Positions 26,316 to 55,278 of a DNA stretch of 64,000 nucleotides are shown here, in pieces. Position 1 is the first letter of the stretch. Each line of letters starts with the position of its first letter. The DNA is from Antedon mediterranea (Eukaryota > Echinodermata > Crinoidea > Comatulida > Antedonidae), in assembly GCF_964355755.1 (NCBI RefSeq), contig NC_092674.1, positions 27,826,001 to 27,890,000 of the forward strand, written 5' to 3'. Position numbers and translations under genes: made by a program. The notes beneath the pieces were generated by a model, which was not told where the DNA came from, searched no databases, and saw nothing but the letters and a program-made list of their open reading frames with translations.

Positions 26316-26396
26316 ACCATGAAAGCCCAGTGGTCTAATGGTTAGGACATCTACATATCAAGCAGAAGGTCCGGGTTCGAATCTCGGTTGGGGAAT
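26316..26396 (+). other. tRNA-like sequence, probably SINE head or tRNA pseudogene
   Basis: Contains an A-box-like 'tggtctaatggttaggac' and a B-box-like 'ggttcgaatctc' with correct spacing. The T arm is good (GGTCC... GGTTCGAATC). The acceptor stem pairs only in part and the anticodon stem has a mismatch, with loop ATATCAA. I see no clear SINE tail. A functional tRNA is unlikely. Confidence 0.45.
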
Positions 26397-31202: not shown

Positions 31203-31990
31203 AGTGTCAAGTGAAGAATTAAATCAACATTTTTCTTCTTATGATATGATATGCTGGGACACGCATTTATATACTTTTGAATATATGTTATAGTATATAT
31301 TGTTAGTGAAAAAGAAGTGTTAGTGAAAAAGAAGCTCAATTGCCAGCCTGGAGTCTATTGCCAACATGAAGGAAACCAAACCTTATGCTTAAAGATGTAT
31401 TGTCCCCCAAAAACATGAAAATTGAAGATTAGTTAAATCAGACTTTGAATAGGTTATTTTGTAGTTTTAATAAAGTTAATCACTTCCATAGAAAAAAAAA
31501 ACGGAAAAAGAATGTTTTCACTTATAAAATAACATGATAAATCGTAAAATGGCAGCCAATTTGATCATTTTTTTGCTTTAAATTCCAGGTAAATAAATTT
31601 GTTATTGATCCAATTTTTGGTCGAAGTCAATAACTTTTATTTGACATTAAAATGGCATATTCAAAAACAAAAAATTTAAAAAAAATATTTTTGATTTGAT
31701 TATGTTTTAATAATTGATATTCATACAATGTAAACCACCATTTATTTATATCGAGATATTATTATAATTAATTATAAACATTATGATTTTATCAATTTAA
31801 TTATTTATGGTTTCCTCAAAATAATAATAGTTCTGTTGTTCATACTGGTGATGTCATGATGCATAGGCCCATTTTTTTAAAGTTTATTGTCAAAACTTTG
31901 GAAACACAACCCAAATGTCGATGTCAACGGAAAAAATAGAGACAAAGCATTTATTTGTTTCTATTATGTCGTCAATTTAAAACCGCTCTT
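31203..31990. other. 3' flank of copy F and left side of the 23-kb insertion
   Basis: No gene. 31389-about 31680 is a relative of the foldback MITE at 1891-2216, in the other orientation and without a clear second end. 31720-31880 parallels the flank downstream of copies B and E ('catgatgcataggcccat'). 31900-31930 instead parallels the region upstream of copy D ('aatgtcgatgtcaacg'), so a junction lies near 31885. Confidence 0.55.
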
Positions 31991-33310
31991 CCCAGCAAAC
32001 AATATAACGTTTGCAGAACGTTATATGAATGTTTCCATGACGTTATATGAATGTTATAAGATAATGTTAGGATGACGTGAAAGTGTGGACCCTTTTTTTT
32101 GTTAATCGAACGTTATAACTAACGTTAGTTTTAACATTTAACAAACGTTTGTATAACGTTATTTCTGACATTAAAAGTAACCTTTAAAAAATGTTACTTG
32201 AATGTTTTGTTTGAACGTAATTTGAACGGTATAAAAATAACGTTAGGATAACGTAAAAGTGTGGACCCTTTTTCTGGTTAATCGAATGTTATAACTAACG
32301 TTGGTTTTAACATTCAATTAACATTGTTAGAATGTTATTTATTACATTAAAACTAACTGTTAAAAAACGTTATATTAATGTTTTTCTGAAACGTTATGTG
32401 AATAATGTAAAAATAACGTTAAGATGACGTTAAAATGTGGACCCTTTTTTTGGTTAATTGAACGTTAGAACTAACGTTAGCTTTAACATTCAATTAACAT
32501 TTTTAGAAAGTTATATATTACATTACAAATAACTGTTAAAAAACGTTATATGAATGTTTTTCTGAAACGTTATGTGAATAATGTAAAAATAACGTTAAGA
32601 TGACGTTAAAATGTGGACCCTTTTTTTGGTTAATTGAACGTTAGAGCTAACGTTAGCTTTAACATTCGCTTAACATTTTTAGAAAGTTATATATTACATT
32701 ACAAATAACTGTTAAAAAACGTTATATGAATGTTTTTTCTGAAACATTTCGTGAATAATGTAAAAATAACGTTAAGATAACGTTAAAATGTGGACCCTTT
32801 TATTGGTTAATTGAACGTTAGAACTAACGTTAGCTTTAACATTCACTTAACATTTTTAGAAAGTTATATATTACATTATAAATAACTGTTAAAAAACGTT
32901 ATATAGATGTTTTGTTGAAACGTTGTGAGTAATGTAAAAATAACGTTAGGATGACGTTAAAATGTGGATCATTGTTTTAGGTAATTGAACGTTATAGCGA
33001 ACGTTAGCTTTAACATTTAAATAACGTTTGTGTAACGTTACCTTTGAAATTAAAAATAACCTTTAAAAAACCTTACTTGAATGTTTTGTTTATACATTAT
33101 TTGAATGGTTCAAAATATCGTTAAGATGACGTGAAAACGTGGAACTATTTTTGGGTTGGCCGAACGTTATAACTAATGTTTGTTTTAACATTCAAACAAG
33201 GTTGTTAGAACGTTATATCATTTAGTTTAATGTTTTGTTGAACTTTATTAAATAAGATAAAATAACGTTAGGTTAACGTGGAATGTGGACCTTTTTTGTT
33301 TGGTATATGT
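31991..33310. repeat. AACGTT-rich 176-bp tandem array (left)
   Basis: The word 'gtggacc' or 'gtgga' recurs at about 32085, 32261, 32437, 32613, 32790, 32963, 33136 and 33287, a period of 176 bp. Every unit carries several AACGTT or TAACGTTA palindromes and 'ggttaattgaacgtta'. Outer units are more diverged than the centre. Confidence 0.9.
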
Positions 33311-33729
33311 TTGGTAATTTACTTTAAAAGATTACTGGTGTTCCGAACATATTAGTTTGTTTTATTTTTCACACATTTGTTGGATTGCTTTAATTGTTTT
33401 ACAAACGGACAACGCACACAATTCAAATTACCATCATTATCATTGAAATAAAATACTTTATTATGGTTTTATTAATATTTAATTATTTTACAAATAACAA
33501 TACTGTAGGCTTTAAGAAAGAGTACGGCTGGGTGGGTGGTTCTAGATATATAAGTTAAAAATTAAAATATAGTAGAGGGTGCAATTTATAATACAGTGTA
33601 AAAGATAATAAATTATAGAAAGATATAGCGCTCGACGTTGGCGGCGTCTTTTTTTAAATTTTAGAGTTAATTGTATGGTTTCCTCATAGAATCATAGCCT
33701 CATCACTACCACTGCCAGTACAGTATGCA
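33311..33729. other. AT-rich spacer, possible 3' UTR of the minus-strand gene
   Basis: No reading frame. On the minus strand it follows the stop at 33730. AATAAA-like signals on that strand near 33458 and 33608 could be used, but this is weak evidence. Confidence 0.25.
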
Positions 33730-34404
33730 TTATATTTCTAGGCCTACAAGGTCTTCTGTTGTATCGTCATCATCCTCCTCCATTGAATCGTCAATGTTTA
33801 CAGCCTGTGGAGTTAAAAAGTCATTGTTTAAAATAATCATCCTTATTTTTAATTAAGTAGACGTATCTTTTATGGATTTTTTAGGGCGTTAGCGCACTTT
33901 CGCACCTCGTCTAACCCAATTTAAAACATTCACCCGCTGCGCGGCGGTTACAACTTTAATCGTGGGTGAACAGCAGACTACAGGGTTGGGTATAGACTTG
34001 CCCCAAGTCTGTATTATCTTTTTTTTAATTTATTTGTTTTTACTCGGACCGCGATTTTTGTCTGAAATCAAGTAGTATACGTATGAAACGCCATATGTGC
34101 CAAAATATTTTTCTTTTTACTACTACGGTAATAATATTAAGACAAAACTCCGTCTGGAACCCAGACTAGGTTGGGTAGGTCAAAGATAAAAGGAGAAGAT
34201 ACAACAGTTCCGTTGGCGGCGTAAACCACATCCGAGTTACTATTTGCCTACGCCTAGGCGTGGGTAAGGTAAAACTATCTATAAAAATGCAAACGATGAT
34301 TATTTATCAAAATGATTATCAAAAATATTAATACTGTAATATCAAAATTAGTAGAGCACAGACGCGAGAACACATCAGATCATCACGATCCATCCAAACG
34401 TAAA

Positions 34405-34675
34405 GTGGAGTTGTGGCTTGGTGGTTATGATGCTTGGCTACCAATCCAAGGGTCCTGGGGTCAAGTCCCGTCCATGTTTGTCAGGATTTTTTCAAAAGAC
34501 TAAATTACAATTCCACTCCAAAAGACTTGTAATAAGACTTTGTTTATGTAAAGCATCTTGTATATAATGTTTGTCTTGTGAACCTCTGAGGGTCCATAAT
34601 GATCAGCAATTGCTGGATGGATCACCCTCATTAAATATGGTTTTAAAAAAAAAACAAAAAAAAAACGTGGAATTA
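34405..34675 (+). mobile_element. SINE-like element with tRNA-related head and A-rich tail
   Basis: The head has 'gtggcttggtggttatgatg' and a B-box-like 'ggggtcaagtccc' at 34410-34470. A middle part follows ('cttgtgaacctctgagggtc'), ending 'ccctcattaaatatggtttt' and a poly(A)-like tract 34646-34672. The spacing fits a tRNA-derived SINE. No target duplication was identified. Confidence 0.5.
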
Positions 34676-34812
34676 GACGGGAACCATATCTAGAGCCCGC
34701 CGTCGTTCGGCTGCTGGATTCTTACGCGTCCATGAAAGCACGTCCGCGTTTCCTATCCTTCTACTGTATATATAATAGCGCGTACTGTTGATTCTTTACC
34801 TATTTATATTCT

Positions 34813-35341
34813 TTGGGTAGGTTTGGCCGGTATGCGTACCTTTTTATGGCCAGCGGGCGTCCAATTATTGCGCAATATATTTTTAATGGCAGCGTCTGTG
34901 CGTGTGAAATACGTACAATGCGACAGAGGGCGTTATATTTAAATTTTCCGCGCGAGATGCCAGCCGGCCACGGACCGGGCTGCGTGGATAGTTATGTGTG
35001 GATAGCTATGGGGATCATCGGCCGGCGGAGAGAGTCGGTTTTCATTTTTAAGCGTTTCAATTTTTGGCCTTTATTTTCTGTGTCTGGTTTAGAATTTGTT
35101 TTGTCCCTGTGATGTTTATAATTCACCATATTATATAGGCCATTATAAAATATGATTTACATTTATTATTAATTAATTATTATATGCCCTCTGTCGCATT
35201 GTACGTATTTCACACGCACGGAGCGGACGCTGCCATTGAAAAAATATTGTGCAATAATTGGACGCCCGCTGGCCATATTGCGCAATATCCGGGACGCCCG
35301 CTGGCCATAAAAAGGTACGCATACTGGCCAAACCTACCCAA
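34813..35341. mobile_element. GC-rich foldback element, 529 bp
   Basis: The left arm (34813-about 34950) starts TTGGGTAGGTTTGGCC and holds 'tggccagcgggcgtccaatt' and 'tacgtacaatgcgacagagg'. The right arm (about 35186-35341) is its complement, ending GGCCAAACCTACCCAA. Arms are about 140 bp with small indels, around a 235-bp centre. It is far more CpG-rich than the surroundings. The open frames here are short and repeat-derived. Confidence 0.75.
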
Positions 35342-35379
35342 CCCGTATCACAGCAGAGCCATATATATATAATTCATTC

Positions 35380-35760
35380 ATTCTTTATTTAGCCTTTAAA
35401 ATCGAAATACATTTAAAACAAGGTAACAAAAACTGTAGCTCGCAGGCTTGCTTATCCATCCTTAGACATCCAGTACATAAATATAGATAAAATACACACA
35501 TTAACGATCCTAATATAAATAAATTCGAATTAAGTGAAAGTATAGCCTATTACTACAGTAGCAAATTATTCTTAATTTAGTCAAATTCCAGTACCCAAGG
35601 AATTTAATATTTATAATGTTCTTTCAATTTCATAGCAAATATATTAGTATTTTCAAGAACTACAGAGTCCTTAATTTCATATGGTAGATTTAACCATAAA
35701 CGTGGAAACTCAGTTATAGAGGAGTGTTTTAGTACCTCTGTACGCGGCATATTGATGACT
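35380..35760 (-). mobile_element. 3' end of a CR1/L2-like non-LTR retrotransposon
   Basis: Minus strand from 35760 reads VINMPRTEVLKHSSITEFPR then LWLNLPYEIKDS and ends at a TAA near 35623. This matches the usual C-terminus of non-LTR reverse transcriptases (PRTE... W..LP..IK..). An A/T-rich 3' UTR follows down to about 35380. It is 5' truncated. Confidence 0.6.
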
Positions 35761-36242
35761 TTGGATACATTAAAAGTGTTTGTGATTCAGAAATATTTTT
35801 TTCCTTACCAGTGTATTTCACTATCCTTATAGGATACAAGGGCCATTTTGGGTCTGGAATTTCATGCCTTTTTGCCCTTGCAACAGTGTAATTTCTAAAA
35901 AACAAAAGTTAAAGTGGTTATCTTTCTATTTTTAATTGTTTTTTCTTCATGCAGTGGTACAATACAATAAGTGAATATAACAAAATACTTACCTCCTGTT
36001 TTTTTATTATCCATTTTTCTGAGACAATGTCCACTGCCTCTTCATCATCAAAAATTACTACGGCAAAGTTAGTCATCTGTGGGAAAAAAATATTATTTTA
36101 ATGTTTTTATTGTTTTAATTTAATACATGTTATATGTCCAACAAATGGCAATGAAAAATTAATTTCATTTTCTTAAATACTATATTAGGTTGAGCATCGT
36201 ATTGTAAGATCTACCTAGTACAGTATAACCGTTTGTTACTCA

Positions 36243-36875
36243 AAAACCGAACCGAACCAACATAAAAGTGATTGAATCATCTAGTGTACAACCCACTGGG
36301 TATATCAATGTAAAAAAAAAATTAAATTTCTACTGTTAACTTATTTTTGGGGTACAACATCATTTTTTGGTCAAAAATGATTGCTAAACCCCGCAAACCT
36401 CCAAAAAACCATAGCAAACCCCACCGAACCAACATAAAAGTGATTGAATAATGTAGTGTACGACCCACTGGGTATATAAATTATTAAATTTCTACTGACT
36501 GTTAGCTACTTTTTTTCGGGATAAAACATAATTTTTTGGTTAAAAATTAGCAATCATTCTTGAAAGTAGAAATTTAATATTTTTTTACATGGATATACCC
36601 AGTGGGTTGTACACTACATGATTGAATCACTTTTATGTTGGTTCGATGGGGTTTGCTATATTTTTTGGGAGGTTTGTAGGGTTTAGCAATCATTTTTGAC
36701 CAAAAAATGATGTTTTACCCCAAAAATAATTAGTTAACAGTAAAAATGTATTATTTTTTTTACATGGATATACCCAGTGGGTTGTACACTACATGATTCA
36801 ATCACTTTTATGTTGGTTCGATGGGGTTTGCTATGTTTTGTTGGGAGGTTTGTGGGGGTTTGCGGTGTTTAGCAA
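36243..36875. mobile_element. foldback element, 'aaccaacataaaagtgattg' family, copy 1
   Basis: Two direct units at 36243-36547 containing 'accaacataaaagtgattga' and 'tagtgtacaacccactgggt'. Two units in the opposite sense follow at about 36558-36875 ('acccagtgggttgtacacta' and 'atcacttttatgttggttcg'). The whole is a large palindrome without coding capacity. Confidence 0.75.
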
Positions 36876-38019
36876 TACCCATTCTTATTTGTTTCTGTAC
36901 AGATTTTGATGTCCGAACAAAAAAAATTAGAATTTCAATTATTTTCAAATTCTTACAAATGTGGTGTGTGTGGTGTGTACAAGCGATCGATAAAATAATG
37001 TTGTAGATACCGATGCTGTACCCACAATTTGAATTTCTTGCAATCTGAATTTTTTAACATTTTGTAACTTTGTTGAACAAGTAATAATTACTTATTTTGT
37101 GATTCTTTCTCATTAAATTAACAATCATAAAAATATCACCTATAATTCGTCAGAGTGATGATTTAATTTCGAGTTTAATGCTAACATTTGTTTTTAAGAA
37201 ATCATAAATTAAATCTAGGTATTTTAAGTTCAGTTTAGTTGTTTTTTAGATTATGTGTATGGTTAAATAATAAATAAGTCAGATTTTTCAAATTATGTAG
37301 GTTCATGTAGTAAAATACTTTGTATTTATTCCTAAATTGCGAAATAACATTTTCTTAAACCAAAAAACACCGAGGTCTATAATAATGAAGTTAATGTATT
37401 TATTTAACAAGTTTAAATGATAATCTATGCATGCAAACATGGTTTGTTAAGCGTAGCAAAATTTGCAAAGAATATAAAAAAAGAAAAAGATTAAAAGTAG
37501 AATAAATGTATAAATATAAAAATAAAAGTACTGCATAAAGTAAAGTAACAAGTTTTGGTAATCTGTCTCCCCGGTCTGTCTCAGAATAAATGTTTACATA
37601 TGGACAAAACACTGCACAAACAATAACAAATTGTAGGCTATGTGTCACGAATGGGACAGCAAATAAACATGACTTTTCAGAAGGTATACATTTATCCTCA
37701 TTATAAAAGATACCTAATCTGTTTTATATAATGTTGCCAGATAGTTGTTTTATATAACTTACCTGTTTAAATTATAACATTTTATTATTATTTATTTATT
37801 TTTATTAAATATGATTTATAATGTCGTTGCGGACGAGACATTTTAACATCCAAATGGAACACTTTTGTCTAGGTTAAAAAATATTATAATTTTGCTATTA
37901 AAAGAATTGTTTTTGACGCAGCGCAAACTTTTATTTACAATCATCAATGTAATTCAACCATTGAAACACTGATAAAAGGGGTATTGTTGAATCCTTCAAA
38001 CATCACAAAAAAACATATT
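36876..38019. other. AT-rich spacer inside the 23-kb element
   Basis: I see no exon, RNA or structured repeat that I can support here. Confidence 0.4.
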
Positions 38020-39235
38020 TTTAAACCCTATTGAACCAAAATAAAAGTGATTGAATCATGTAGTGTACAGTATGACTAAATTGGTATGTCAGTCAAAACA
38101 AAAATTTGTTAAAAATTGTTAAATACAGTTACAGTCCTTATTTTTGGGGTAAAACATCATATTTAAGGTTAAAAATAATTGGGTTAAAAAATGCTGTTTT
38201 ACCCAAAAATTCTTTTAAATTGACAAACCAAGTGGTAGGAAGTTTGTGCACTACTACATATTCAATTCAAAATTCTTTAATCATCCCACACGGGGCAATT
38301 CAAATAAAAAGGTCTGGATTAAAATTATCTTACAAAATATCACAAAACAGTACAAAATAATAAGAGTCAGATGGCCACTGCACTGGCAAAAACGAATTCC
38401 TTTTCTGGTTTGTTCTACATGCTGGGCATCGAAAGCAACACCCATGAGGCATCAGCTCAAAATCACTGAACAAGTCATGGTTAACATTTTTTAGAATAGC
38501 TCTACTTTTTTCTAGAATTTGCATGTCACAAAAAGAAGATAAGCTACAAAGTTGAAAACCTATTAATTTAGAACTTAAGTTAACAATTCTTTGTAGTGAG
38601 TTTTACTCTTTGACCCTAACTAAGACTAAAAAAACATCATATAAAGGAAAAAGTTAAAAAAACAATTATTATTGATTAGAACCCAACTAGAACTATATAG
38701 GGAGACAATTTATGAGAAAAAAAATTTGAAATTCCTTTAAGTTTGCCTTTTTTTGGGTTAAAAACTTCAATTTTTGGGAAAATTACTGATTTCACAGCGC
38801 AAAAAAAAACAAAAAAAGCTGCGCAAACCTCCTTTAAATCAATTAAAATTGTTTTTTTAAAGAAATTTCAAATTTTTTTCCCCATAAATTGTCTCCCTAT
38901 ATAGGTATAGTTGTGTTTTAATCAATATTAATAGATTTAAAGGAGGTTTGCACAGCTTTTTTTGTTGTTTGCGCTGTTAAATCAGTAATTTTCCCAAAAA
39001 TTGAAGTTTTTAACCCAAAAAAAGGCAAACTTAAAGGAATTTCAAATTTTTTTTCTCATAAATTGTCTCCCTATATAGTTCTAGTTGTGTTCTAATCAAT
39101 AATAATTGTTTTTAAGGAGGTTTGCACAGCTTTTTTTGTTGTTTGCGCAGTTTAGCAATACCCCCAAAGTTTTACACTACACAATTCAATGACTTTTATT
39201 TTGGTTCAATGGGGGTTTGCTATGTTTTTTAAACA
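38020..39235. mobile_element. foldback element, same family, copy 2, with inner palindrome
   Basis: Outer ends: 'aaccaaaataaaagtgattg' near 38035 and its inverse 'aatgacttttattttggttc' near 39190. Inside, 'agggagacaatttatgag' to 'caaacctcct' (about 38700-38835) is repeated in reverse at about 38938-39080. A minus-strand stretch at 38524-38330 encodes a Cys-rich peptide (HGCCFRCPACRTNQKRNSF) that could be a decayed zinc-binding exon; I cannot confirm it. Confidence 0.6.
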
Positions 39236-41250
39236 GTAAATGTAAGTGTATATTTTTTTTAATAACTAATTAACAAACTAGCATTTATATATGTAATATT
39301 ATACAGAATTCCCACTGGCAATAAAAGCTGAAATGTAAACATCAATAGTATCAAAACAAATGTAATATTAAACTCAAATTAAAACAAATGAAAAGGGCTA
39401 TTCATTACCTTAATTTCACAATCAAACAGGTTGCTGTTGCTTCCAAATAGAAGTCAAATTTGTTGTGGACCAGCTGATGCTGAACAATGACAGCATTTAT
39501 GAAAGATAATACAGTACAGTATAATAATGTGCAAAGAGATATCAATTGTTGGTCTTGTTAACATTAAATGCTAAACAAAGAATGAATTAGTTCAAAAATA
39601 TAAAACAATTATAGGCTCAATAACTGACCAATCGGATTCAGTTAACTAAAATGATCAACCAATGAAGTGAATTATAGGCTAATGGCTGTTAACCATAGAG
39701 AAAGTCTCCACATGAGTTAACAATTAAGTGGTTTTACACATAAACAATTAATCAGCAAGCAATCTCATGATCTGTGTTGTTTAATTCAAATCATGAGACA
39801 AAATTTGTATTAATTACTAATTAATAGAGTAATATAAAAGCCTAAAAAAATACTTTTTAATTTAGTTGCAAACAAGAAATGGTTATTTGATTAATCATGG
39901 AGGTAAACTCATTGGCTTCATTTCTTTTAAGTCTAGTTTGCATTTCATTGAATAATGCTAAATTTAACAAAAGTAACATTACCTAAATTCCATCAGCACT
40001 AAATGTGACCATTAATATTATGGACCTTTAGATCATGTGGATGCAGTTCCCACCAAGCTGTCTTTCTCGTTGAACACTTTTAGATTTCACTCAATGACCA
40101 AAAACTGGATTACAAAAGACCTCGGCGTAAAATATTTAGGTGACGTCAAATCCAAGTCTCACCAACTCTCTAATTCTAGTGAGAAATACGATCTGACGCA
40201 TGCGCAACGTCTCAAAATGATGTAATCATCGGCATGTAAATAAAAGTCTTATAATAGTTCAGACTCGCAAAGTTATTTTTTTTCAATGGGTTTACTGTTA
40301 CTGAAGGTCCTTACTTATGACATGGTGCAACATATGTAATCTAATGTTGCTCCATGCTTATATTTTTACCATGAGATTTTCTTTTTTTTAGGACTCTTGG
40401 GTGGGCTTCTTTTCGAGATTACTTTTGCAAACCAAACAGGGTGGGGAGGCGTTCTTTTTTAGAGTGTAAACTACATCTCCCTGGTTCTACTGGGTAGTGT
40501 AGTTAATTGTGTTTGGTAAAATTGCTATACCACCAGTCCATTGGGAGTGACCTTCTCAGATATCACAAGATTTTATGAGAATTCTATGCTAATCATTGAA
40601 GGCTATCAGCATGGAGTATTACTCCATGCTTTCAGTTAAATATTGTATTGTTACCACAGTGTTATTTTGTCATTTTCACAAAGATACTTGCCAGTACAGT
40701 ACTGTAGTTTACATATTAAGATTTAGAATATTCAAGTATATGATATGATTTCCATTACTAAATTGACATATTCAATTATTTTACACATTTTTTTTATATA
40801 TTTTTGTATATTTAGGAAGATACATTCCTATGTAGATGGAATCAAACATTAAAAATTATTGAGACAGCTGCAAAATTTGGTGTCCATGAATATGAACTTG
40901 TACTTAATAAATTACATCCTTGTGCTAAGGGTGAGTGAATATATAATAATTGTTCCTCTGAAATATTAATTTTTAAAACAATTTATAATAATTAAAATTA
41001 ACTCCAATTTGATTACTATTGAAGAGTGCTAGGTTTGTACTAATATGTAATAGAGTGTATCATCATGGTATTATTAGCACTTGAAAGTGTTTTAATTTTT
41101 GGTTTCTAAATTCTATCCTTAGGTTAGGGCACAAGGTATACCATAAGATACAATTATGTTACAATTAAAACATTATAAACTATGGAACGCTGCTTGCGCA
41201 ACAATTCAGCGAATTTAATTTCGCAAGTGTTGTCGCAGGGTGAATGAAAT
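39236..41250. other. spacer with one exon-like segment
   Basis: Mostly featureless. 40816-40930 (+) looks like an exon: acceptor TTTAG, an open stretch including CRWNQTLKIIETAAKFGVHE and YELVLNKLHPCAK, then a GTGAGT donor. I find no partner exon on this strand, so its status is uncertain. Confidence 0.25.
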
Positions 41251-41254
41251 GCTT

Positions 41255-42970
41255 TAATGATAAACATTTTTTTGTTAAAAGAAACCTAATTTGTCTTTCC
41301 TGGCCATGATTTTATCCAGCATTTCAAATCATCATTCTAAAAGATGATTCTTGCAGCAATGAATTCCATAAATATTTGTGTTTCTACATTACAGTACTGA
41401 CACTCAATGCTAATGGTAATGAGGTAACCAATGCATCATTGCTTTCACTAACCAAATTTTCTCTTAGTTTCTCACTTTGAATTCTTTGTATCATAATAAT
41501 AATCTCCATGATCTCAATTATAATCTTCTATAACAATAAAATTTATATATTTAATTCATTACAAAAAGAAAAACATTGCTTTTATTGAATCAGATTTTTT
41601 ATTTATATTTTTTTGGATTTGGATTTAAATTTAAATCGGTGGCGCACACACAATATTACGTAACAAATAAGTAATCAAACTATAACATATAACTACAGTA
41701 ATACAATTCCCACCCCACCCCACCCACTTTTCTTTCAATTTATTTAATACAGCAATGATACATACTTTCAGAGTAACACTTAGTAATACATGAGTAAAAA
41801 AACAAATTCCACCTCAAAATCTATTCTCATACTCATGGCTTTAGTAGCAATTTTTAGTAGCTTTTATACCATGGATTTCCTTGCTTATATGAAAAACTAT
41901 TGGTTTACAAAAGCAAAACACTTAATTTGCCCAAACCTATTTTCCTGTTGAGTTAATCTAAGTTCTATAGGCCTACGGTTCCTCATTCTATTTTAGTGAT
42001 GATAAAAGATAGGTGGTGATTGTACTCCCATTACTACTGTACATTCTTCATAAATTGTGCTTTTAGACAATGTATTTAAAGTCTACTAAACACTATTGGA
42101 TGATTTTCATATTTGATATTAAAGTATGTACAGTATTTTGGTTTAGTTAAATCATATTTGTTATAGATTATTTTTGATCAATTTTCATTATAATGAAAAT
42201 TTAATACATACCTGTTATTATTATTATTGTTATTATTATTATTATTATTATTATTGTTATTGAAAACTAAGATCGAGAATGATGACCCCTTGTATAATTA
42301 AATGTATAGCATTATCTATGGTGGTCCTGTTTTAAATTTGAACAGCAAATGTCTCAAATCACACTATTAAATTGTACAGTATTATTTTGATCAATTTAGG
42401 GCAAATGCTTCATAGCACAATAAATTACATTATGTTAACAAATGAAGCAACAAATTTATATAACATGTTGATCATTTTAAGAAATTTGACATTGATGAAT
42501 AATAATTACCAATTTAAAATACCCCTTTTCATTTTATTATGTGAACTCTTTGTATAGATATCATGTAAAAACACAATCCTTGTATTGGGGGATGATCTCA
42601 TGAAATTTATAGATCCATTACAATACAAGGTACATGAATCAAACTATAAAATGCTTTTTCGAAAATAATAATTTTATTGAACATATGCTTTTATAACAGC
42701 AGCACACTTTGACATGAAGGTGAGGAAACTTAAACTAGTAATACTATATTTATATAGACAAATTACAAAAGTACGATATTTGACCTACTATTACAAAACA
42801 CCTATTACATTTAAAAAGTGGTTAGAATGACCATAAAAAATTAAAATTACACAGTAATGTCAATTCCAAATGAATATTATTATTATATTAATTATTATGA
42901 ATGTGGGTTGTATTTATTGTTATTGTGTCATTGGTAATTTGGTTTAGTGGATGGTGGTACTATCTGAGTG
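41255..42970. repeat. left copy of a diverged direct duplication
   Basis: Shares ordered words with 44520-45150: 'gtcgcagggtgaatgaaatg', 'gattttatccagcatttcaa', 'aatgcatcattgctttcact', 'cttagtttctcacttt' and 'gaatgtgggttgtattta'. The order is conserved, so this is an old tandem duplication of the element interior. An (ATT)n microsatellite lies at 42207-42260. Confidence 0.55.
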
Positions 42971-43108
42971 TTATCTGTTTATTTTTAGTTTACTTTTTAT
43001 TTTATATTATATTATATATGTGTGAAGCCATGTCCCTTGTGAAACTTGTGTAGTAGTGTAACAATTTAGTATCCCATCAATCAATCTCACTCATTTCCTG
43101 GTAACTTA

Positions 43109-43782
43109 GGCCCTATTTCTGCTGCCAATAAACAATACAGTATTTATTTTTGCCTGCGACATGATCGGTCAACATCGTGTTTTTATTTTCTGTCGCTGTC
43201 AGCTGTTTTACACACGTGTATAGATATATTCGGCAAAAATGTGGAGCAAAGACGTCACAGTATTTACTAAATCTGTCTGGGGAAGGAGGGGTGGAGAAGG
43301 AGGGGGTGGGGGAGCTAAAATTTCTGGCCAACTAAAAGGTAATAAAAGGGACAACCAACATTTATAAAGACATTTCTAAAAAACATAAAGCAGGAGTACG
43401 GAATATACTTGTCTCCAAAGCAAGTAAACTCAAAGCTGAAGAGCCTGCGAAAGCAGTACAACATTGCAAAAGACAATAACTCGGGGAGGGAATGAATTAC
43501 TTGTCCCCATTACGATGTTTTCTGTGCTCTCACAACATCTCTATCACTAGGGCTAGGCTGTTGAAAGTGAGACGTAAAACATCCTTTAAGGCTTTATTGC
43601 GAATTTTAATTATCGACCAAATAAATGAATGGCAATTTGGGTAAAAAGGATGAAATTTAACACGACTACCCAAGAAGTATTGTTAGCAGAAACGGGGTAC
43701 TGAAAAATACGATATAAAAAATACCGTATTTTATACTGTATTTTTAAACCGTATTTTGAGTAGTTGCAGCAGAAACAGGCCC
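43109..43782 (+). mobile_element. PIF/Harbinger-like element with Myb/SANT remnant, TSD TTA
   Basis: Left end GGCCCTATTTCTGCTGC and right end (reverse-complemented) GGGCCTGTTTCTGCTGC: 15 of 17 match. TTA flanks both sides (43106-43108 and 43783-43785), the TWA duplication typical of PIF/Harbinger. Inside, on the + strand, 43370-43490 reads IKTFLKNIKQEYGIYLSPKQ then VNSKLKSLRKQYNIAKDNNS, followed by CPHYDVF. That is the layout of the Myb/SANT- or MADF-like DNA-binding protein these elements encode. No DDE transposase is present. Confidence 0.65.
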
Positions 43783-44519
43783 TTATTCTATATGAATGAG
43801 TCAGGTATATCAGAGGTGGGCCTGTAACCAGGAATGTACCTCTCTGGTCAAGACTTCAATAACTTTTGCTCCCATAGGATACAACTGGGTTCATTTACCT
43901 TTTATAAGTACTACTAGTACTGCATAATTAGGAAACAGTAAAGTCATATCTGAATTGAAGTTCTAATATATATATTAATAGTTTATTTTGTATTTTTGTA
44001 GTTAAGTTAAGTGTTCTCCGAATAAATTATTATTAATGGTCTCCCTTCCTTTGTTTTTATGGCCTCCAGATGTTACTTGCCAGTGTTTGCAATAGAGATA
44101 ACATAACATTAAATGAAGTTAGGTCCTAATTTTAAACTTAACTAAGAATTATTAATTGGCTTAAACAAATTTATGATAATAGGGTAAAGTCAAATAAAAG
44201 TAAAATTAATTAAAATGAGATATAAATTTAAATAGAAGAATAACAGTTATTTATCTCCCTGGCTCAATGTAGTTATGAAATTAAAGAAGGTAAAGGTTGT
44301 TCTCAGATTTTAAAGATACATTCCAATACACTTGCTTTAGATAGATATTTATGTACAAATAGGTCATAGTTTTATAAATATGGTAACTACACAACAAATT
44401 TACCAAATACCAGTTCATTGCAAACTAATGGAAATTTGGATAACATTTGTAAATGTTTGTATGTCTATGCGTATGAAACTCAAATTGCCAAATGTCTTTA
44501 ATCCTCTAAAAATAGAATG

Positions 44520-45150
44520 ACTATACAAAGTTTGTCGCAGTGTGAATAAAAATGCTTCAATGTTAAAAGAAACCAATTTCCTGAGATGTTTTTCTTGGTC
44601 TTGATTTTATCCTGCATTTCAAATCATCATCAAGAAAGCTGACTCTTGCAACACCACTCAAGGCTAATGTACTTAATGCATCATTGGTTTCAGTAACTGA
44701 ATTGTCCCTTAGTTTCTCACTTTTATACCTCTAATAATCTAAACTAGTAATGTTATGGCTAACTTGATTAAAATTTATTGGAGTAACTTAAGTAATCAAA
44801 CTGGTGTCAATACTTATAATGATATAGTTATCAATAGTCATGTTTCTGATGTTAGGGAAAATTATATCAATTCTGTTTACAGTCATCAAATTCACTACAG
44901 CTGAAATAATCTAATCTATGCTTTCCTGTTTATTGATGTCCCTAATTTGGGTTCCTATTGTTCCTTATTATTTTTGCTGGTGACACTATCAAGAGTGTGT
45001 ATATCTTAACATAGATTCTAAGTACTGTATATATTCCTTTGTTTATATACTAATTGATATGCTAATTTAGTTTCCAAAGTATGTGGGTTGCATTTAATTG
45101 GTATTAGTATTACAGTTTATTTTTAATTTGGTTTTATCGAATTATCAATA
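44520..45150. repeat. right copy of a diverged direct duplication
   Basis: Partner of 41255-42970, about 3.3 kb away, with the same word order ('gtcgcagtgtgaataaaaat', 'gattttatcctgcatttcaa', 'aatgcatcattggtttcagt', 'gtatgtgggttgcattta') but shorter. Confidence 0.55.
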
Positions 45151-45341
45151 AAAACTAATTGATCATTTCTTATTTTTGACTTATTTCTTAATTGAATACT
45201 ATTTGGAAATTTTTTTTAATGGTTCAACAAAATTTAAACACCATTTATTACTAGATAAAATCTATGATTTATATCAAGATAAAACAATTTGCTCAATTTT
45301 TGGACTATAATTGTAAATCATTTTTAATTACAGCTATAGTT

Positions 45342-46507
45342 AAGTCTAGGACCTGGGTCAAATTTGTATGCATTTAATTTAGGAGAGGATATATTAGGAT
45401 AATTTGACACCAACGAACAACATGGATGTGTGCTGAATTCGCTATCCGGGGCGAACATGCCCAAAATCGGGGTCAAAGGTTCTTATATCTCGACAACCAC
45501 TTGTCGTACAGATTTGCTTTTGGTGACAAATTGTTCAGAAAGTACATATTTATATTCAGTCTAACACAACCTCTAACGAAAAAATGACTGGAAATGCTTT
45601 TACTGACCTTTGACCCCAAAATGACCACATTTTCAGGTCAAATTATTCTTTAAAATGCCAATGGACAAACTGTATGGTATCAAATGAAAGCATACACAAT
45701 ATGCTACCCAACTTGTATTGAAAATGTTTAATTATGAAGCTAATTATATTGAAAATGTGCATATTTTGATTACTTTTATACAAAAAATGAATAATTGGTA
45801 TCAAATGAAAGCCCATAAAATATTCTACCCATTTCTACCCAACTTTTATTAAAAATCTGTAATTATGATGCTAATTTTGTTAAAAATGTACATATTTTAG
45901 TATTTTGTTACAAAATGAGTATACATATTAAATAGTGTAAATTTATTTTGATTTATTTATAATATTTAATAATTGTTCTTTTGGTGTCAAATTGTTCAGA
46001 ATATACATATTTGTATTCGGTCTAACACAACTTTTAGCGGAAAAATTACCGGAAATGCTGTCACTGACCTTTGACCTAAAAATGACCAAAAAACACATTT
46101 TCTGGTTAAATTATTCTTTAAAATGCCAATAGATAAACTGTATGGTATCAAATGAAAGCATACACAATATGCTACCCATTGCTACTCAACTTGTATTGAC
46201 AATTTTTAATTATGAAACTAATTGTATGGAAAATGTGCATATTTTGATTACTTTTATACAAAAAACGAGTAATTGGTAGCGTAATTGTTATGTTTTTTTA
46301 TATAATATTAAATTATTTAAGTGTTTGGAAAAACTATTTGGTATCAAATGAACATAAAATATTCTACCCATTGCTACTCTGTAATTATGTTGTATTTTTT
46401 TATATCTAGGCTGAGGATAGTCTAGATCATTATCCTGTAACACTAACAGTTGAGATATTCTCTCCTAAATTAAATGCATACAAATCTGACCCAGGTCCTA
46501 GACTATA
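45342..46507. mobile_element. foldback element, 'gtctaggacctgggtcaaat' family, inner copy
   Basis: Begins AGTCTAGGACCTGGGTCAAA and ends with GACCCAGGTCCTAGACT; the next inner words 'atgcatttaatttaggagag' and 'ctctcctaaattaaatgcat' also pair. The inside has repeated 'tggtatcaaatgaaagc' and 'gtgcatattttgattac' segments. Confidence 0.7.
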
Positions 46508-47858
46508 TGACTATACATTCATTTTAACTATTATTCATATTGGGTGTTACTTTGTCCAATTCGTTAAATTTATTGGATATTTTACGTACTGTTGGCCATC
46601 TCGGATTTGACACCCCTTTTTTAGAAAAATTGCAACATCTTTTTTGTATTACTTTACAACGTAGAGAAACTAAATCAGCTGGAATTTTGCTTTAACAAAA
46701 AATGAAAAACAAATTACATAGTGGCCTATTAATATGAATATATATGTTCCGAGTATTTTGATACCAATATCATTTTGAAAGACCAAAGGGTTACGGAGAT
46801 AGGGCAATTTGGATGCCATTTTGAAATTGCATTGAAAATCTGTAATTATGAATAATGATGTAGATTTTTTTGAAAAATGTGCATATTTTATAAAATTTTT
46901 GACAAAAATGAGTATATTAAATAGTGTAAATTTATTTTGGTTTATTTATTATGATTAAATTATTGAAGTGTTTAGAAGATCTATTCAGTATCAAATGAAA
47001 GCCCATAAAAATATTCTATCCATTGTTACCCAACTTGTATTGAAAATCTAATTATGATATTTAACAACAAAATGTGCATAAGTTTTGACAGAAATGAGTA
47101 CTGTATACTGTACGTAAGTGCAAGTAGTGTACATTTATTTTGTATAATAAATCAATATTTTTTTAGTTTTAATGAAATATGTGACACTATATCAAATGAA
47201 AGCCAATCAAATATGCTATCAAATTGAATTGTAAAGTTAAAATTAATAAAGCTACTTTAGAAAATGTTTTATAATATTATAAATAAACCAAAATAAATTT
47301 ACACTACTTACTGTATACGGTACTCATTTTTTTCCAAACACTGATGATGTAATGATTTAATATTATATAAATAAACATACCAATTACGCTACCAAATATT
47401 CATTTTTTGTATAAAAGTAATCAAAATATGCACATTTTCCATACAATTAGCTTCATAATTAGAAATTTTCAATACAAATGCTTTCATTTGATACCACACA
47501 GTTTGTCCTTGGCATTTTAAAGAATAATTAAACCTGAAAATGTGTTTTTTGGTCATTTTTGGGTCAAAAGTCAGTAAAAGCATTTCCAGTCATTTTTTCG
47601 CTAGAGGTTGTGTTAGACTGAATATAAATATGTATATTCTGAACAATTTGTCATCAAAAGCAAATCTGTACGACAAGTGGTTGTCGAGATATAAGAACCA
47701 CACATTTTTAACTTTTGACCCCGATTTTGGGCATGTTCGCCCCGGATAGCAAATTTGGCACACATTCCATGTTGTTCGTTGGGGTCAAATTATCCTATAA
47801 CAGTTGAGATATTCTCTCCTAAATTAAATGCATATAAATCTGTCCCAGGTCCTAGACA
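46508..47858. mobile_element. foldback element, same family, inverted second half
   Basis: 47540-47858 is the reverse complement of about 45342-45640, including the words 'ccggggcgaacatgcccaaa', 'gacaaccacttgtcgtacag' and 'cagtctaacacaacctcta', each read in reverse. Together with the preceding element it makes a nested palindrome of about 2.5 kb. Translations of this part on either strand are repeat-derived. Confidence 0.65.
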
Positions 47859-48354
47859 ACGGAAACATTAAAAAAAATTTTTCTTCTTAATTGTTTTTTT
47901 TTCTTCAAATTTTAGATTTAGAATAGATTTTACTATTATGAAAATTGTGCATTGTCAATTGTCCTTAAGATCGACAATTATCCTTAATATGCACTTATTT
48001 CTTAAATGTATTGTTTATAGTTCATAGATTTTACAAATATGGTACAGTATTAATTAATAACTTTTTGTGAACATTTTGTATGGGTTGAACCTCTCGTTAC
48101 GTGTTCCTCCGTTTTAAAAGAGAGAAACCAAACTATTATTATTATAGTTGGCAAGCGTCTATTAATTAGTATAACAACAACATTTTTATATTTAATGACA
48201 AAAAGAGAGATTGACCTTTTGCTTTCATTAACTCAGATTAGCAAGAAAAAAAAATGTTTGTCTTTCTTCTTACAATTAAAGAATAATAGAACTTGAATGA
48301 AGCTCAATTGATTGGAATGAGAGTATATACTGTACTAGAATTATTTAGTAATCA
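47859..48354. other. AT-rich spacer
   Basis: Nothing supported. There are no exon signals or clear repeats. Confidence 0.4.
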
Positions 48355-48960
48355 ACAAAACCAAAGAGGTGATAATTGATTTCGGCAAGGTACATAATAG
48401 TTTAGAATATCTTAAAAATGAAATTATTGAAGACGTTAACGAATACAAATATTTAGATACTACCATAGTAGAACAAATTTAATGTTACAACTCAGTCAGA
48501 TGAAAAGCAAATCAGCGATTGTATTTTTTAAAAAAACTTAACTATTTTAACGTAGATAAAAACGATTTTAATATTATTTTACAAATCTGTTGTCCTTAGC
48601 ATTTTAACTTTAAATTGTATATATGGTAACGTGACGAAAGCAACCAAAAACAAACTTAAGAATGTAAAGCTGCTAAACGTATAATAGGAGAGTGGAAATT
48701 GTTATTGAAACCTTAGAAACAATTTATACCAGCTGAACTCAAAAGAAAGTTATTAAGATTATTCAAATTAAACACATCCTCTAAAATCATTAATTAAAAT
48801 ATAATAGATCTGGCATAAGATTATGTGTACCGCGTACTCATATGACAAGATATAGGAATTCTTTTTATCCAAATTCAATTTTCAAGTTTAATCAGGCGCT
48901 AATTTTGTTACTTATCATTTGTATTATGTATGCCAAAGGAAAGCAAATTTCCACAAATTA
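48355..48960 (+). pseudogene. decayed non-LTR retrotransposon reverse transcriptase, C-terminal part
   Basis: With frameshifts the + strand reads KTKEVIIDFGK, then VNEYKYLDT, KKLNYFNVDKNDFNI, FYKSVVLSIL and LKNVKAAKRIIGEW. This is the order seen at the end of LINE-type reverse transcriptases: the K.K...DF segment, the YKYLG segment, the F..L..F.V segment and the K...II segment. Several stops and indels make it non-functional. It lies in the interior of the 23-kb element. Confidence 0.6.
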
Positions 48961-51889
48961 TTGGACGAATAAAATATATATTATATCTGATCTTAAAACT
49001 TTTTGAAAATGGAACATGTTCCCAATGTTAAATCATTACAGTGACATATTATAACAATAGACCTATTATAATTTATAGGTCCATCAATGATACCAACACA
49101 CAGATTTATTTGATTTATTTTATATACTATCATCATGTAATTACTTTTAAACCATGATTTGACCAAAAAGATTGTATCCTTTTATTTTGTATATTATTAT
49201 TAATTGTAGTAAGGGATTGTAATGCTTTTATAACCATACAGTACTACACAACTGCTCTTAGTCTTATCTCTGTGAGTGACAATAAAATCTCCCTCCCCAT
49301 TAAATAACACCCCCTCCCCCTTGTACCCTAATGACATTCACACAGAGGTTCCAAATATATTGAAAAGATCGTTTTTTTATGTTGCGTCATTAAAAATCTG
49401 TAATTTAACGAGAAAATGTGACTTTTATACGCAATTTTGTCCACTCATGTCGTAAATTGTTTACCACAAATGCGATAGAGCGTGACCGAAATTACGATAC
49501 GCCGTCAGCGCCCGTTGACAAATATGCTATAAAACCTATAATTGACTGTTTATAGAATAATGTAAATTTAATTTACAATAAATACTCAATGAAATATATG
49601 ACATAATAAAGAAATCCAAATATAAATTGAAATATTTACAGATAATGTGTTTAAAAATATCCAAATTAAAACGGCCTTCCATAACATAAAGTGCGCCCTC
49701 AATCGTCATACATTTATCAAACTTTTGAATTTTATGTTTATGTTTTATGCCATCACATATATTTTTCGACTTTATGTTATTGTTAACTAAATTAAGAAGG
49801 AAAAAATCCATTTGCGTCTACAAGATAATAATTTCACTTTCCAAACTTTAACAGCGGAAAACTGCCACGTTTGTGATTAGTCAGAATCAGAAAATATTTA
49901 CTCATTCTTCCCTAAAGGATGGTGGAGCTGAATTGTATTGGCATCCCACATTGTGTGACGTTTTTGAGACATTTTAGAATAAATTTCATCCCAAGTGTTA
50001 TTTGAAAATATAATATTGAAAAAAAAACCCAAAACAACGCTTTCCTCAATTACGTTGTTGCCAAATTGAATACTGGTTCTTCAAGTTGTGTATGATCGAA
50101 TCGAATTAACACGGGTGTTAAGATAAACAAATACACCATCATCCAGACTGTACCTCCCTTCCTAGACTCATAATAACTATTGTACGCATCTTGGCCGGCG
50201 GCCCACTACAATTCAGAGAATTAAAACGCATAATATTTACGAGATACTTGTTTCCATTAAGAAAGACGTTAAAGAAGATGGATAAATGGTGAAAAGCGAA
50301 TGTAATTTCTTCATTGAATGTCAACAACCATATTTATTTTCCCATAAACAAGGCCTATACAAATACATGTAAAAACTGCAGGTGTGTGGTGGTGCAGGCA
50401 GGCAATAAGCTAGGCAGATTCCGACTATACAGACATTTTGCGAAAGGATCTGATCCTGCTATTTTTTCTAATGTCCTTTCTATGACTTAATAATCGCAAT
50501 AGTTTTAAAATTGTCTGAATTTTATTTCAAAACCCAATACCAACAGCAAAATTAACTCGCAAATATAACAGGAAGGTTTTCCACCAAACGCCATGCTCTG
50601 TTGTCAAAATCTACAATTATTGTGTGAAATGAGAATATTATATCATATATCTTTGAACAATGTAAATATAGCTAGTTAACTATTTCAGCGGTACGTTTAC
50701 AATCTGCGTAGGAACCTTTTTGAAAAGTCTTTGTAGGGCCTCATCGCATAAATGTGTTTCTTTCATCTCTGTTTATTCCGTTCCGTTTACATTGTATGTT
50801 TGCCAATGTTTTTATTGAATTAAAAATTGATAGTTGGTAACTAATGTAAAGAGGGTTTGTGCAAAATGTGGTCATCCCAAACCAGAGCTGCTTAGAAGTA
50901 GTTTTGGTCATATATTTTGTAGAAACAGCACTTGTGACAAAATCTGCCGTCAATATGTGCTAACAACCACATTATTTTGTGCAAACTTGCCACCCTCAAT
51001 GTGCAATTGATGTATCAATTGATTTCTACACTTGTGTTGTTTTTGATGGAAATTATAGGTTCATATCGGCAAAAAATCATCACCCAAACATGACGCCGTT
51101 ATATGTAACACATTTTGATGTTAAATGTGCAAATAATATTTTTTTTTAATCAAAAAACTGTTTCGTTTGCTAATGTGAGATTGAACGGCTGGTAATAATA
51201 TGTATATTTTGTAACACGAAACATTTTTTTTGTGTTCAATTCAATTCAAATTCACATTTATTTAGCCAAAAGCAGCATGGACCTTACACTCGAAAAACGG
51301 CATTCTGTAGTAGTACCGGTAGTAAATCCATTTACAAAAATAAAAATAAGTCATAATATTATTGCTGAGAATTCTAAATTAACTTCAATCTGTGGAAGTA
51401 GTGTCATCATCAGCAATAGACACGATCGTATCCAGTATATCGGACAAAATGTGTTGTTTTTTAGAAGACAGCATCTTTTATTCTGGATTACACAATCATA
51501 TCTGCAAGGTGGACAAGGACAACACATCTCATTTTGGATACATACTCAGTGTTATTGCATTTTTGCTATTTATTATTGAATTTTTCAAACAAAAATATGG
51601 TATAGATAGTAACAACGGATAGAATTATGTGCTAGATGTATCCCGGGTCGTCCCTATGCAACGTATTTTGGTGTTGAAATATTATACTATATAGGGGGCG
51701 CTATAACAAGCAAAAAATTGTATTCATAAAAGCATGCACAGCAAATTCATATCCGAATACTGTATCAGCAACAATTCATTTACGGCCTACAGAATTTTGC
51801 AAATCAAGATTTTATAAGATATCTCAACCTTAAAATCATATTGATGTTTTAGTTAAACGTTTTTGGGATAGGATCCCGTTATTATCAAG
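48961..51889. other. AT-rich interior, no supported gene
   Basis: Short open stretches occur on both strands but none has exon borders or a family likeness. 51232-51280 ('caattcaaattcacatttat') may be the tail of a retroelement. Confidence 0.4.
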
Positions 51890-54800
51890 AGGTGTGTATA
51901 ACGTTAGCAAAATGTTTTCAAAATGTAATGGTTTCATTACAAAGTTATTGTTAATGTTCATTTCACGTTAGTACTAAATGTTAAATTTAAACGGTTGTTG
52001 TAAATGTTTCAACGTTATCTAAAAAAGAATGTTTGGATGTTTCTAAAACGTTAGAAAAATGTTAACATGTTATGTAATCGTTTGTTTTAAATTGTAAACG
52101 TTTGTATAACGTTCGCAAAATGTTATCAATATGTTTTCTAATGGTTTACTTACAACGTTATTGGGAACGTTCATTACACGTTAGGCCAATGTTAAAAACA
52201 AATGTTATATAGATGTCACATTTTAACGTTTATTGTAAATGTTATTTCAACGTTATTTCAAAGTTATATTGATGTTATATTTGAACGTTATTGTAAACGG
52301 TTTTTTTAACGTTAGCAAAATGATATCAAAATGTTGTCTAATGGTTTACTTACAACGTTATTCAAGTTTCAAGTTTCAAGTTTATTGTTTCACACAATAC
52401 AATACAATAGAACAGTAACATAAATTAATAAAAAAACAATTGTGTGAGGAGGACGCATTAAGCCAAGGCTTTAAGTTTGGTCCTCCAGATAATTAATATA
52501 TTTAATTATTTAATTTAAGTGAGAGAACAAAAATAAACTTCTTTCTTAGGAACGTTTATTACACGTTAGGCCAATGTTAAAAACAAATGTTATATAGATG
52601 TCACATTTTAACGTTTATTGTAAATGTTATTTCAACGTTATTTAAAAAGTTATGTTGATGTTATGTTTGAACGTTATTGTAAACGTTTGTATAACGTTAG
52701 CAAAATGTTATCAAACCTTTTTATGATCGTTTATTTACAACGTTATTGGGAATGTTTAAAACAAATGTTATGTAGATGTCACATTTTAATGTTTATTATA
52801 AATGTTATTTCAACGTTATTTAAAAGTTATGTTGATGTTATATTTGAACGTTATTGTAAACGTTTTTTTGACGTTAGCAAAATGATATCAAAATGTTGTC
52901 TAATGGTTTATTTACAACGTTATTGGGAACGTTCATTGCACGTTAGGCCAATGTTAAAAACAAATGTTATATAGATGTCACATTTTAACGTTTATTGTAA
53001 ATGTTATTTCAACGTTATTTAAAAAGTTATGTTGATGCTATATTTGAACGTTATTGTAAACGTTTTTTTAACGTTTGCAAAATGATATTAAAATGTTGTC
53101 TAATGGTTTATTTACAACGTTCTTGGGAACGTTCATTGCACGTTAGGCCAATGTTAAAAACAAATGTTATATAGATGTCACATTTTAACGTTTATTGTAA
53201 ATGTTATTTCAACGTTATTTAAAGAGTTATGTTGATGTTATATTTGAACGTTATTGTAAACGTTTGTATAACGTCAGCAACATGTTATTGAAATGTTGCT
53301 TGATGGTTTATTTACAACGTTATTGGGAACGTTCATTACACGTTAGGCCAATGTTAAAAACAAATGTTATGTAGATGTCATTTTTTAACGTTTATTGTTA
53401 ATGTTATTTCAACGTTATTTAAAAGTTATGTTGATGTTATATTTGAACGTTATTGTAAACGTTTGTATAACGTTCGCAAAATGTTATCAATATGTTTTCT
53501 TATGGTTCATTTACAAAGTTATTGGGAACGTTCATTGCACGTTAGGCCAATGTTAAAAACAAATGTTATATAGATGTCACATTTTAACGTTTATTGTAAA
53601 TGTTATTTCAACGTTATTTAAAAAGTTATGTTGATGTTATATTTGAACGTTATTGTAAACGTTTGTATAACGTTAGAAACATGTTATTGAAATGTTGCTT
53701 GATGGTTTATTTACAACGTTATTGGGAACGTTCATTGCACGTTAGGCCAATGTTAAAAACAAATGTTATGTAGATGTCATTTTTTAACGTTTATTATAAA
53801 TGTTATTTCAACGTTATTTAAAAGTTATGTTGATGTTATATTTGAAGGTTATTGTAAACGTTTGTATAACGTTCGCAAAATGTTATCAATATGTTTTCTA
53901 ATGGTTTATTTACAACGTTATTGGGAACGTTCATTGCACGTTAGGCTAATGTTAAAAACAAATGTTATATAGATGTCACATTTTAACGTTTATTGTAAAT
54001 GTTATTTCAACGTTATTTAAAAGTTATGTTGATGTTATATTTGAACGTTATTGTAAACGTTTGTATAACGTTCGCAAAATGTTATCAATATGTTTTCTAA
54101 TGGTTTATTTACAACGTTATTGGGAACGTTCATTGCACGTTAGGCTAATGTTAAAAACAAATGTTATATAGATGTCACATTTTAACGTTTATTGTAAATG
54201 TTATTTCAACGTTATTTAAAAGTTATGTTGATGTTATATTTGAACGTTATTGTAAACGTTTGTATAACGTTCGCAAAATGTTATCAATATGTTTTCTAAT
54301 GGTTTATTTACAACGTTATTGGGAACGTTGATTGCACGTTAGGCAAATATTATTTAAAACAGTTATGTAGATGTTGCTTTTCAATGTTATTGTGAATGTT
54401 TTACAGACGTTATATAAATATTATTTAGAACGTTAGACAGATGTTGAGTTTGAACGTTATTTTATACTGTCTGATTAACGTTATCAGCATGTTATAAAAA
54501 CATATTGATTGCAACGTTTTTGTGAACGTTCAATTAACGTTAGACAAATGTTACTGAATTAGTTTTGTAAATGTTACTTTTGGACATTATTGTAAACGTT
54601 ATTCTAACATTAGATGAACGTTATCAAAACATGTTTTGTAATGGTTACATTTTGAATGTTATTGTAAATGTCCTTCAAACGTTACATAAACGTTATTATA
54701 AATGTTCTGTATGAGGTAAAACGTAACATTTTGTAGAACGTTTATTTAACGTTAGGTAAATGTTAATAAAACAAGTTTGGAAAATGTTATATATTAACGT

Positions 54801-54951
54801 TATTATAAACGTTTTTACAACGTTGAAAGAATGTCCGACGAATAAGTCTTGTTAAGTGAACGTTATGTTAATGTTCTTTTAACGTTCGTAGTGAACCTAA
54901 CCAAACAATAACCAAACAAGAACGTTAGAAAAACGTTATGTGTTTGCTGGG
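51890..54951. repeat. AACGTT-rich about 199-bp tandem array (right)
   Basis: 'gggaacgtt' recurs at 52925, 53125, 53325, 53524, 53724, 53923, 54122 and 54321, a period of 199-200 bp. Units carry 'gttatttcaacgttattt', 'gtaaacgtttgtataacgtt' and 'tacaacgttattgggaacg'. Units are very similar in the centre and decay toward 54950. Repetitive reading frames of about 69 codons here are by-products of the array. Confidence 0.9.
52363..52551 (-). mobile_element. retroelement 3' end inserted in the right array
   Basis: About 190 bp starting 'caagtttcaagtttcaagtt' and 'tattgtttcacacaataca' interrupts an array unit ('acaacgttatt' before, 'aacgtttattacacgtt' after). Reverse-complemented, it ends in '...aataaacttgaaacttg', as LINE/SINE 3' ends do. 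Confidence 0.55.
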
Positions 54952-54971
54952 TTCAACATTCATATTTCCTA

Positions 54972-55132
54972 AAGCCGATTTTCCACTAGGCGAATTTGTT
55001 CGCGCGAATCGAAGGCGTCCGCTAATACGCATGCGTAGAGAAGGATGTGGAAGATGTAAACATGAATACACATGCGTACAAGCTGGCGCTTTCGATTCGC
55101 GCGAACAAATTCGCCTAGTGGAAAATCGGCTT
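54972..55132. mobile_element. foldback MITE, 161 bp, upstream of copy G
   Basis: The arms AAGCCGATTTTCCACTAGGC and the following 'gaatttgttcgcgcgaatcg' are repeated in reverse at 55087-55132, ending GCCTAGTGGAAAATCGGCTT. Arms are about 45 bp with near-perfect pairing around a 70-bp centre. It lies only 20 bp from the right end of the 23-kb element. Confidence 0.8.
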
Positions 55133-55278
55133 AAGTGACATACGGATGTGTGTGCTTTTTAACATAATTATATTAGTTTCACCAATGGCAACCTTTCACA
55201 ATTATGCTGGTATAATAAATACTTATGCAAAATACTATTGTATAGCTTTAGTGTTTATTTATTTCACTCCTTGTAAGA

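Follow-up and report, generated by a model that had tools for sequence, protein, structure and literature searches.

The segment at positions 31991-54951 of the analysed stretch of Antedon mediterranea DNA (the window, 64,000 nucleotides, C5:27826001-27890000) is very probably (probability about 0.9) a giant cut-and-paste DNA transposon of the CACTA-related animal group (TRC/EnSpm, CMC clade), present here as a non-autonomous copy that transposed recently. The element spans 22,961 bp (C5:27857991-27880951), has precise ends flanked by a 2-bp duplication, and belongs to a family, here F1, with further copies at unrelated sites of the genome, one of which carries an intact transposase gene. The genome searched amounts to 354 Mb in 18 contigs, and genome-wide repeat counts are to be read as lower bounds.

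Within the window, the terminal sequence CCCAGCAAACA occurs once, at 31991, and its reverse complement likewise once, at 54941-54951 (Table 1). The inverted ends and the two tandem arrays with periods of 176 and about 199 bp, all reported by the initial annotation, were recovered to the base, and the target duplication that it had suggested seeking is the dinucleotide TT on either side of the element. The flanking DNA had further been read as two adjoining parts of the region upstream of a paralogous gene copy (copy D). This holds in outline, with window 31901-31934 corresponding to 12497-12530 and window 55172 onward to 12547 onward, but about 56 bp of the left flank and 218 bp of the right flank have no counterpart in the paralogue. 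The unmatched right flank includes a separate foldback MITE at 54956-55149, with inverted halves about 78% alike, which lies just beyond the right terminus of the giant. Copies elsewhere in the genome are better proof of insertion than the copy-D comparison. The insertion accounts for the break in the region upstream of one gene of a tandem cluster in the window, which we take to encode acyl-CoA-synthetase-like proteins. The window also contains two further arrays, one with a 21-bp unit (GTAGTGATATGCCCAAATGTG, 57439-61215; 180 copies, 98% alike) and one with a 73-bp unit (62197-63691; 20.5 copies, 96% alike), as well as a predicted tRNA-Asp-like gene at 26324-26395 with the unusual anticodon ATC, perhaps a SINE or pseudogene.

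Table 1. Full-length F1 copies in the genome (contig coordinates) and parts of the element at the analysed site (window coordinates)
Feature	Coordinates	Strand	Length	TSD	Remark
F1 copy C5 (window)	C5:27857991-27880951		22,961 bp	TT	
F1 copy C8	C8:15888233-15911225		22,993 bp	CT	
F1 copy C9	C9:13292449-13320698		28,250 bp	AC	
F1 copy C2	C2:23724411-23752380		27,970 bp	TA	
TSD, left copy	31989..31990	.	2 bp	TT	2-bp duplication in 11/11 bounded copies
Left TIR CCCAGCAAACA	31991..32001	+			first 110 bp identical at four genomic sites
Left subterminal region, AACGTT array	31991..33305	+			176-bp unit, 33 AACGTT sites, phase ~11.7 bp
Second-gene exon relic	35773..35896	-			exon_6276 of C9 copy, protein identity 88% (tblastn)
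Nested MITE without left end	36246..36865	.			deletion junction ~36246-36250, transposase gene removed
Right subterminal region, AACGTT array	51840..54951	-			199-bp unit, 90 AACGTT sites, phase ~11.75 bp
Right TIR TGTTTGCTGGG	54941..54951	-			
TSD, right copy	54952..54953	.	2 bp	TT	

The strongest evidence for a single mobile unit comes from the other copies. The first 110 bp of the element are 100% identical at four genomic sites, and its last 132 bp lie at the matching convergent position of all four, 23-28 kb away, so that the proposal of one giant transposon with two unlike subterminal arrays is borne out and the contrary outcome, arrays occurring independently as one-ended elements, did not materialize. 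Pattern searches of element ends also uncovered three sister families. F2, whose left end reads CCCAGCAAACAATTTTACGTT, is represented by five bounded copies that measure 15.7-23.2 kb (target duplications TG, TC, TT, AT and TA) and by further left ends, and F4, bounded by CCCAGCTAACA, by two copies of 15.5 kb each (TT and TA). The F3 element at C3:30505832-30524638 retains its arrays and has a damaged right terminus; its interior (L022-L023) includes a retroelement-like ORF of 1277 aa as well as a 24-bp unit repeated in tandem about 170 times. All 11 bounded copies with intact ends, drawn from F1, F2 and F4, are flanked by a 2-bp duplication.

The window copy differs from its closest relative, on C8, by 66 substitutions in 22,775 aligned bp (99.7% identity). 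Identity this high might be expected of a segmental duplication or an assembly artefact; however, in all four F1 copies it ends exactly at CCCAGC/GCTGGG, the flanks are unrelated and each copy has a duplication of its own, and with 2-bp duplications in 11 of 11 copies such an origin is refuted for practical purposes. Divergence of the window copy is 1.5% from the C2 copy and 2.4% from the C9 copy, F2 copies differ by 0.65-0.86%, and the F4 pair by 18 substitutions in 15,483 bp, values that indicate recent and repeated movement of F1, F2 and F4 elements. The suggestion that the window element might be old, made on the strength of the elements nested in it, does not survive this comparison: the element has diverged by 0.3% from the nearest copy, and the nested elements are common to several copies, so they predate the move into the window and are no sign of an old insertion.

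A partner was not found for a diverged left end at C3:12913861 or a right end at C2:38089511. Paired matches of 0.9-2.8 kb to the right end (L012-L014) were set aside as a different palindromic repeat with long inverted arms; since the match continues past the terminus into identical inverted flanks, they reflect the capture of some 70 bp from the end of an old AACGTT element. A search of published text with the terminal sequence returned primer coincidences only.

Deletion of coding sequence distinguishes the window copy from the 28.3-kb C9 copy. No ORF longer than 126 codons is present in the former; the latter, in agreement with the expectation that longer copies might encode a transposase, carries an uninterrupted 713-codon ORF (L001:7318-9456, minus strand), its sole ORF above 142 aa. 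This protein matches the Pfam families Transposase_21 (E 5e-5) and DUF4218 (E 1.7e-5), and a search of the genome with it identified, at C4:23787276 and C8:7985136, intact relatives of 684 codons that are 45% identical to it, sit inside the two 15.5-kb F4 elements and match the same families (E 1.4e-5 and 1.8e-4, respectively). For the transposase, both scores lie below the curated cut-offs (25.1 versus 27 bits and 23 versus 28.6). With both Pfam matches below threshold, family placement leans on the domain pair in combination with catalytic motifs, element ends and target duplication. The C9 and F4 proteins share NIDG and CDAPAR, each of which contributes an Asp residue, followed by C(2)C (CDKC), H(3)H (HSMVH) and then FENY. 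In the C9 copy and in both F4 copies alike, the left end and the gene lie on opposite strands. A more distant transposase, 35% identical, is encoded at C2:18608955, where the flanks, over about 3-4.5 kb each way, contain no AACGTT array, and a PDB profile search with three transposases gave no match.

As only one of the four full F1 copies carries the transposase gene, and MITE sequence flanks that gene on both sides, it might be regarded as a passenger, i.e. part of a smaller EnSpm element that had inserted into an unrelated giant with another transposase of its own. The arrangement of the MITE itself argues otherwise. This palindromic, high-copy repeat (L001:9415-10010 in C9, about 36250-36865 in the window), which has ends GGGTATTGCTAAAC and an 8-bp duplication, lies just 5' of the C9 transposase ORF and has many copies genome-wide. 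In C9 it is whole and stands between 8-bp duplications ATTCTTAT, marking it as a separate insertion, with the transposase gene on its left, and it lies between the 5' end of that gene and the sequence common to C5, C8 and C2. The gene was accordingly present before the MITE arrived. In C5 and C2, the MITE lacks its left end and is joined, at the same place, to sequence that lies 3' of the transposase gene in C9. The MITE between the C9 gene and the shared sequence and its truncated counterpart in C5 and C2 together place the gene in the common ancestor, and the nested-transposase hypothesis was rejected on these grounds. Moreover, both F4 giants contain a 45%-identical transposase in matching orientation, and the ends and 2-bp duplication of the giant are as this class of transposase would predict (PMC1636069). 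A passenger gene is therefore very improbable. The transposase gene was deleted from the window lineage, with breakpoints at two related MITE copies. The mobile copies of F1 may rely on just one intact transposase gene genome-wide.

Downstream of the transposase gene, on the same strand, lie pieces of a candidate second, spliced gene. The gene is known from exon-sized pieces alone, which are conserved, in the same order, in C9 and F4 (tblastn E 1.7e-6 and 2e-4). One piece each of C9 and F4 matches DUF4806 below the cut-off (E 0.037 and 0.0055), and a genome-wide DUF4806 search produced, outside the elements, two sub-threshold matches only; given this weak outcome, the DUF4806 label stays tentative. 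In the window copy, this gene is reduced to the exon relic in Table 1.

The left subterminal array of the window copy (32017-33218) comprises 6.9 copies of its unit and the right array (52549-54418) has a higher-order period of 399 bp; AACGTT is greatly overrepresented in both, the counts of 33 and 90 comparing with 3.8 and 7.5 sites expected on the left and right from Markov-1 resampling, and the motif is absent from the 13 kb between the arrays. Among families, arrays of about 0.7-4 kb occur at both ends and hold from tens up to about 170 AACGTT sites. They are asymmetric, with unit sequences that differ between ends and between families and left/right unit lengths of 176/199 bp (F1), 151/180 bp (F2), 138/140 bp (F3) and 104/212 bp (F4). 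When AACGTT is taken together with close variants, which were picked after inspection of the sequence, the dominant period is 11.4-12.0 bp in all eight arrays of the four families. A control restricted to single units, in which tandem copying is removed, was significant in six of the seven units with enough sites (0.17 for the right unit of F4). The arrays themselves also serve as insertion targets, as illustrated by a LINE-like element with ORFs of 1037 and 285 aa inside the right AACGTT array of the F2 copy at C2:38635510-38658679 (L015-L017).

In maize En/Spm, the TNPA protein binds subterminal repeats and brings the ends together. In the elements described here, a C9-type transposase would act in trans on the CCCAGCAAACA ends of deleted copies, and the product of the second gene, weakly DUF4806-like, would bind the phased AACGTT sites and draw the element ends together in a TNPA-like manner. 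The initial proposal that the arrays bind transposase would be modified accordingly under the En/Spm parallel, the TIR being the likely site for transposase and the array for a second protein. It is a possible, though doubtful, extension of this model that these giant animal CACTA elements are two-component systems, with a DUF4806-like protein of no recognizable relation to plant TNPA binding dozens to more than 100 AACGTT sites phased near the helical repeat, so that the arrays would be functional platforms for synapsis or against silencing whose spacing and motif are conserved as the unit sequence turns over.

We consider it an equally tentative possibility that the phased arrays are passive satellite DNA that expanded from an 11-12-bp ancestral unit through replication slippage and unequal exchange. 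TRF detects sub-periods of 11-12, 24, 58 and about 72 bp within units (the 72-bp period in F4), array length differs between copies (81-136 AACGTT sites per right array), and CACTA elements of Chenopodium capture satellite arrays near their 3' end (PMC8978399). Against inert origin stand the eight arrays themselves, all unlike in unit sequence and length, yet alike in keeping AACGTT and the 11.4-12.0-bp phasing, their invariable position directly inside the termini on both sides, and the distant transposase at C2:18608955 without arrays. As the variant motifs were picked post hoc and an ancestral 11-12-bp unit could yield phasing without selection, array function is best called putative. Four families with unlike units, a common motif and phasing of about 11.7 bp nevertheless offer a clean comparative system in which to address whether such arrays are functional platforms or inert satellites, the question raised by the maize TNPA work.

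Returning to the element as a whole, the initial annotation had allowed that it might be of an undescribed kind; the tnp2-type transposase, CCC ends and 2-bp duplication instead place it with the animal CACTA-related elements. A tnp2 (Transposase_21) DDE transposase is carried by a full-length sister copy but not by the window copy, the motifs C(2)C and H(3-4)H stand between the second D and E as in the CMC transposase pattern (PMC12730594), and a TIR with a CCC core (CCCAGCAAACA or CCCAGCTAACA) bounds F1, F2 and F4. Neither the CACTA terminal motif nor the 3-bp duplication of plant elements is found, CCCAG ends and a 2-bp duplication occurring instead, and the ORFs of the window and C9 copies include no PolB, integrase or packaging/capsid genes as would characterize Polinton/Maverick elements. 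This genome contains giant CACTA-type elements of 15-28 kb that have moved very recently. No animal element of 15-28 kb with kilobase AACGTT arrays was found in the literature searched, Repbase lying outside the comparison.

The closest known relatives are the Transposons Related to CACTA (TRC) of animals described by DeMarco et al., which include SmTRC1 and the Aedes and Tribolium TRCs, are filed as EnSpm in the CMC clade, and combine a CCC TIR core (CCCAGTCAAC at the ends of the Aedes element), a 2-bp duplication and a Transposase_21 domain (PMC1636069). The crinoid elements resemble them in their CCC-initial TIR, duplication, transposase type and further spliced coding capacity, and SmTRC1 in having a tandem-repeat region, but are larger, at 15.5-28 kb where the Tribolium and Aedes elements measure 5.2-9.2 kb (PMC1636069), and bear kilobase arrays at both ends with unlike unit sequences. 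With plant CACTA/En-Spm elements such as the soybean Tgmt* (20.5 kb; PMC2613891) they share giant size, asymmetric subterminal repeats, a tnp2 transposase accompanied by a second DNA-binding protein (a candidate here) and deletion derivatives mobilized in trans (presumed here), whereas the plant elements have CACTA termini, a 3-bp duplication, subterminal repeats of a few hundred bp and a second protein to which the present candidate is not recognizably related. Enlarged En/Spm families of 16-20 kb in the red alga Chondrus crispus are likewise giant EnSpm elements, but have 4-5 ORFs, and the excerpt citing them (PMC6431247) describes no arrays. Polinton/Maverick, Teratorn and other giant eukaryotic transposons (PMC6431247) fall in the same size class, but differ in ends and duplications and in the polymerase, integrase or capsid-type ORFs that are missing here. 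What appears to be new among these systems is scale and anatomy, that is, animal elements of 15-28 kb with asymmetric arrays of 104-212-bp units and sites phased at about 11.7 bp.
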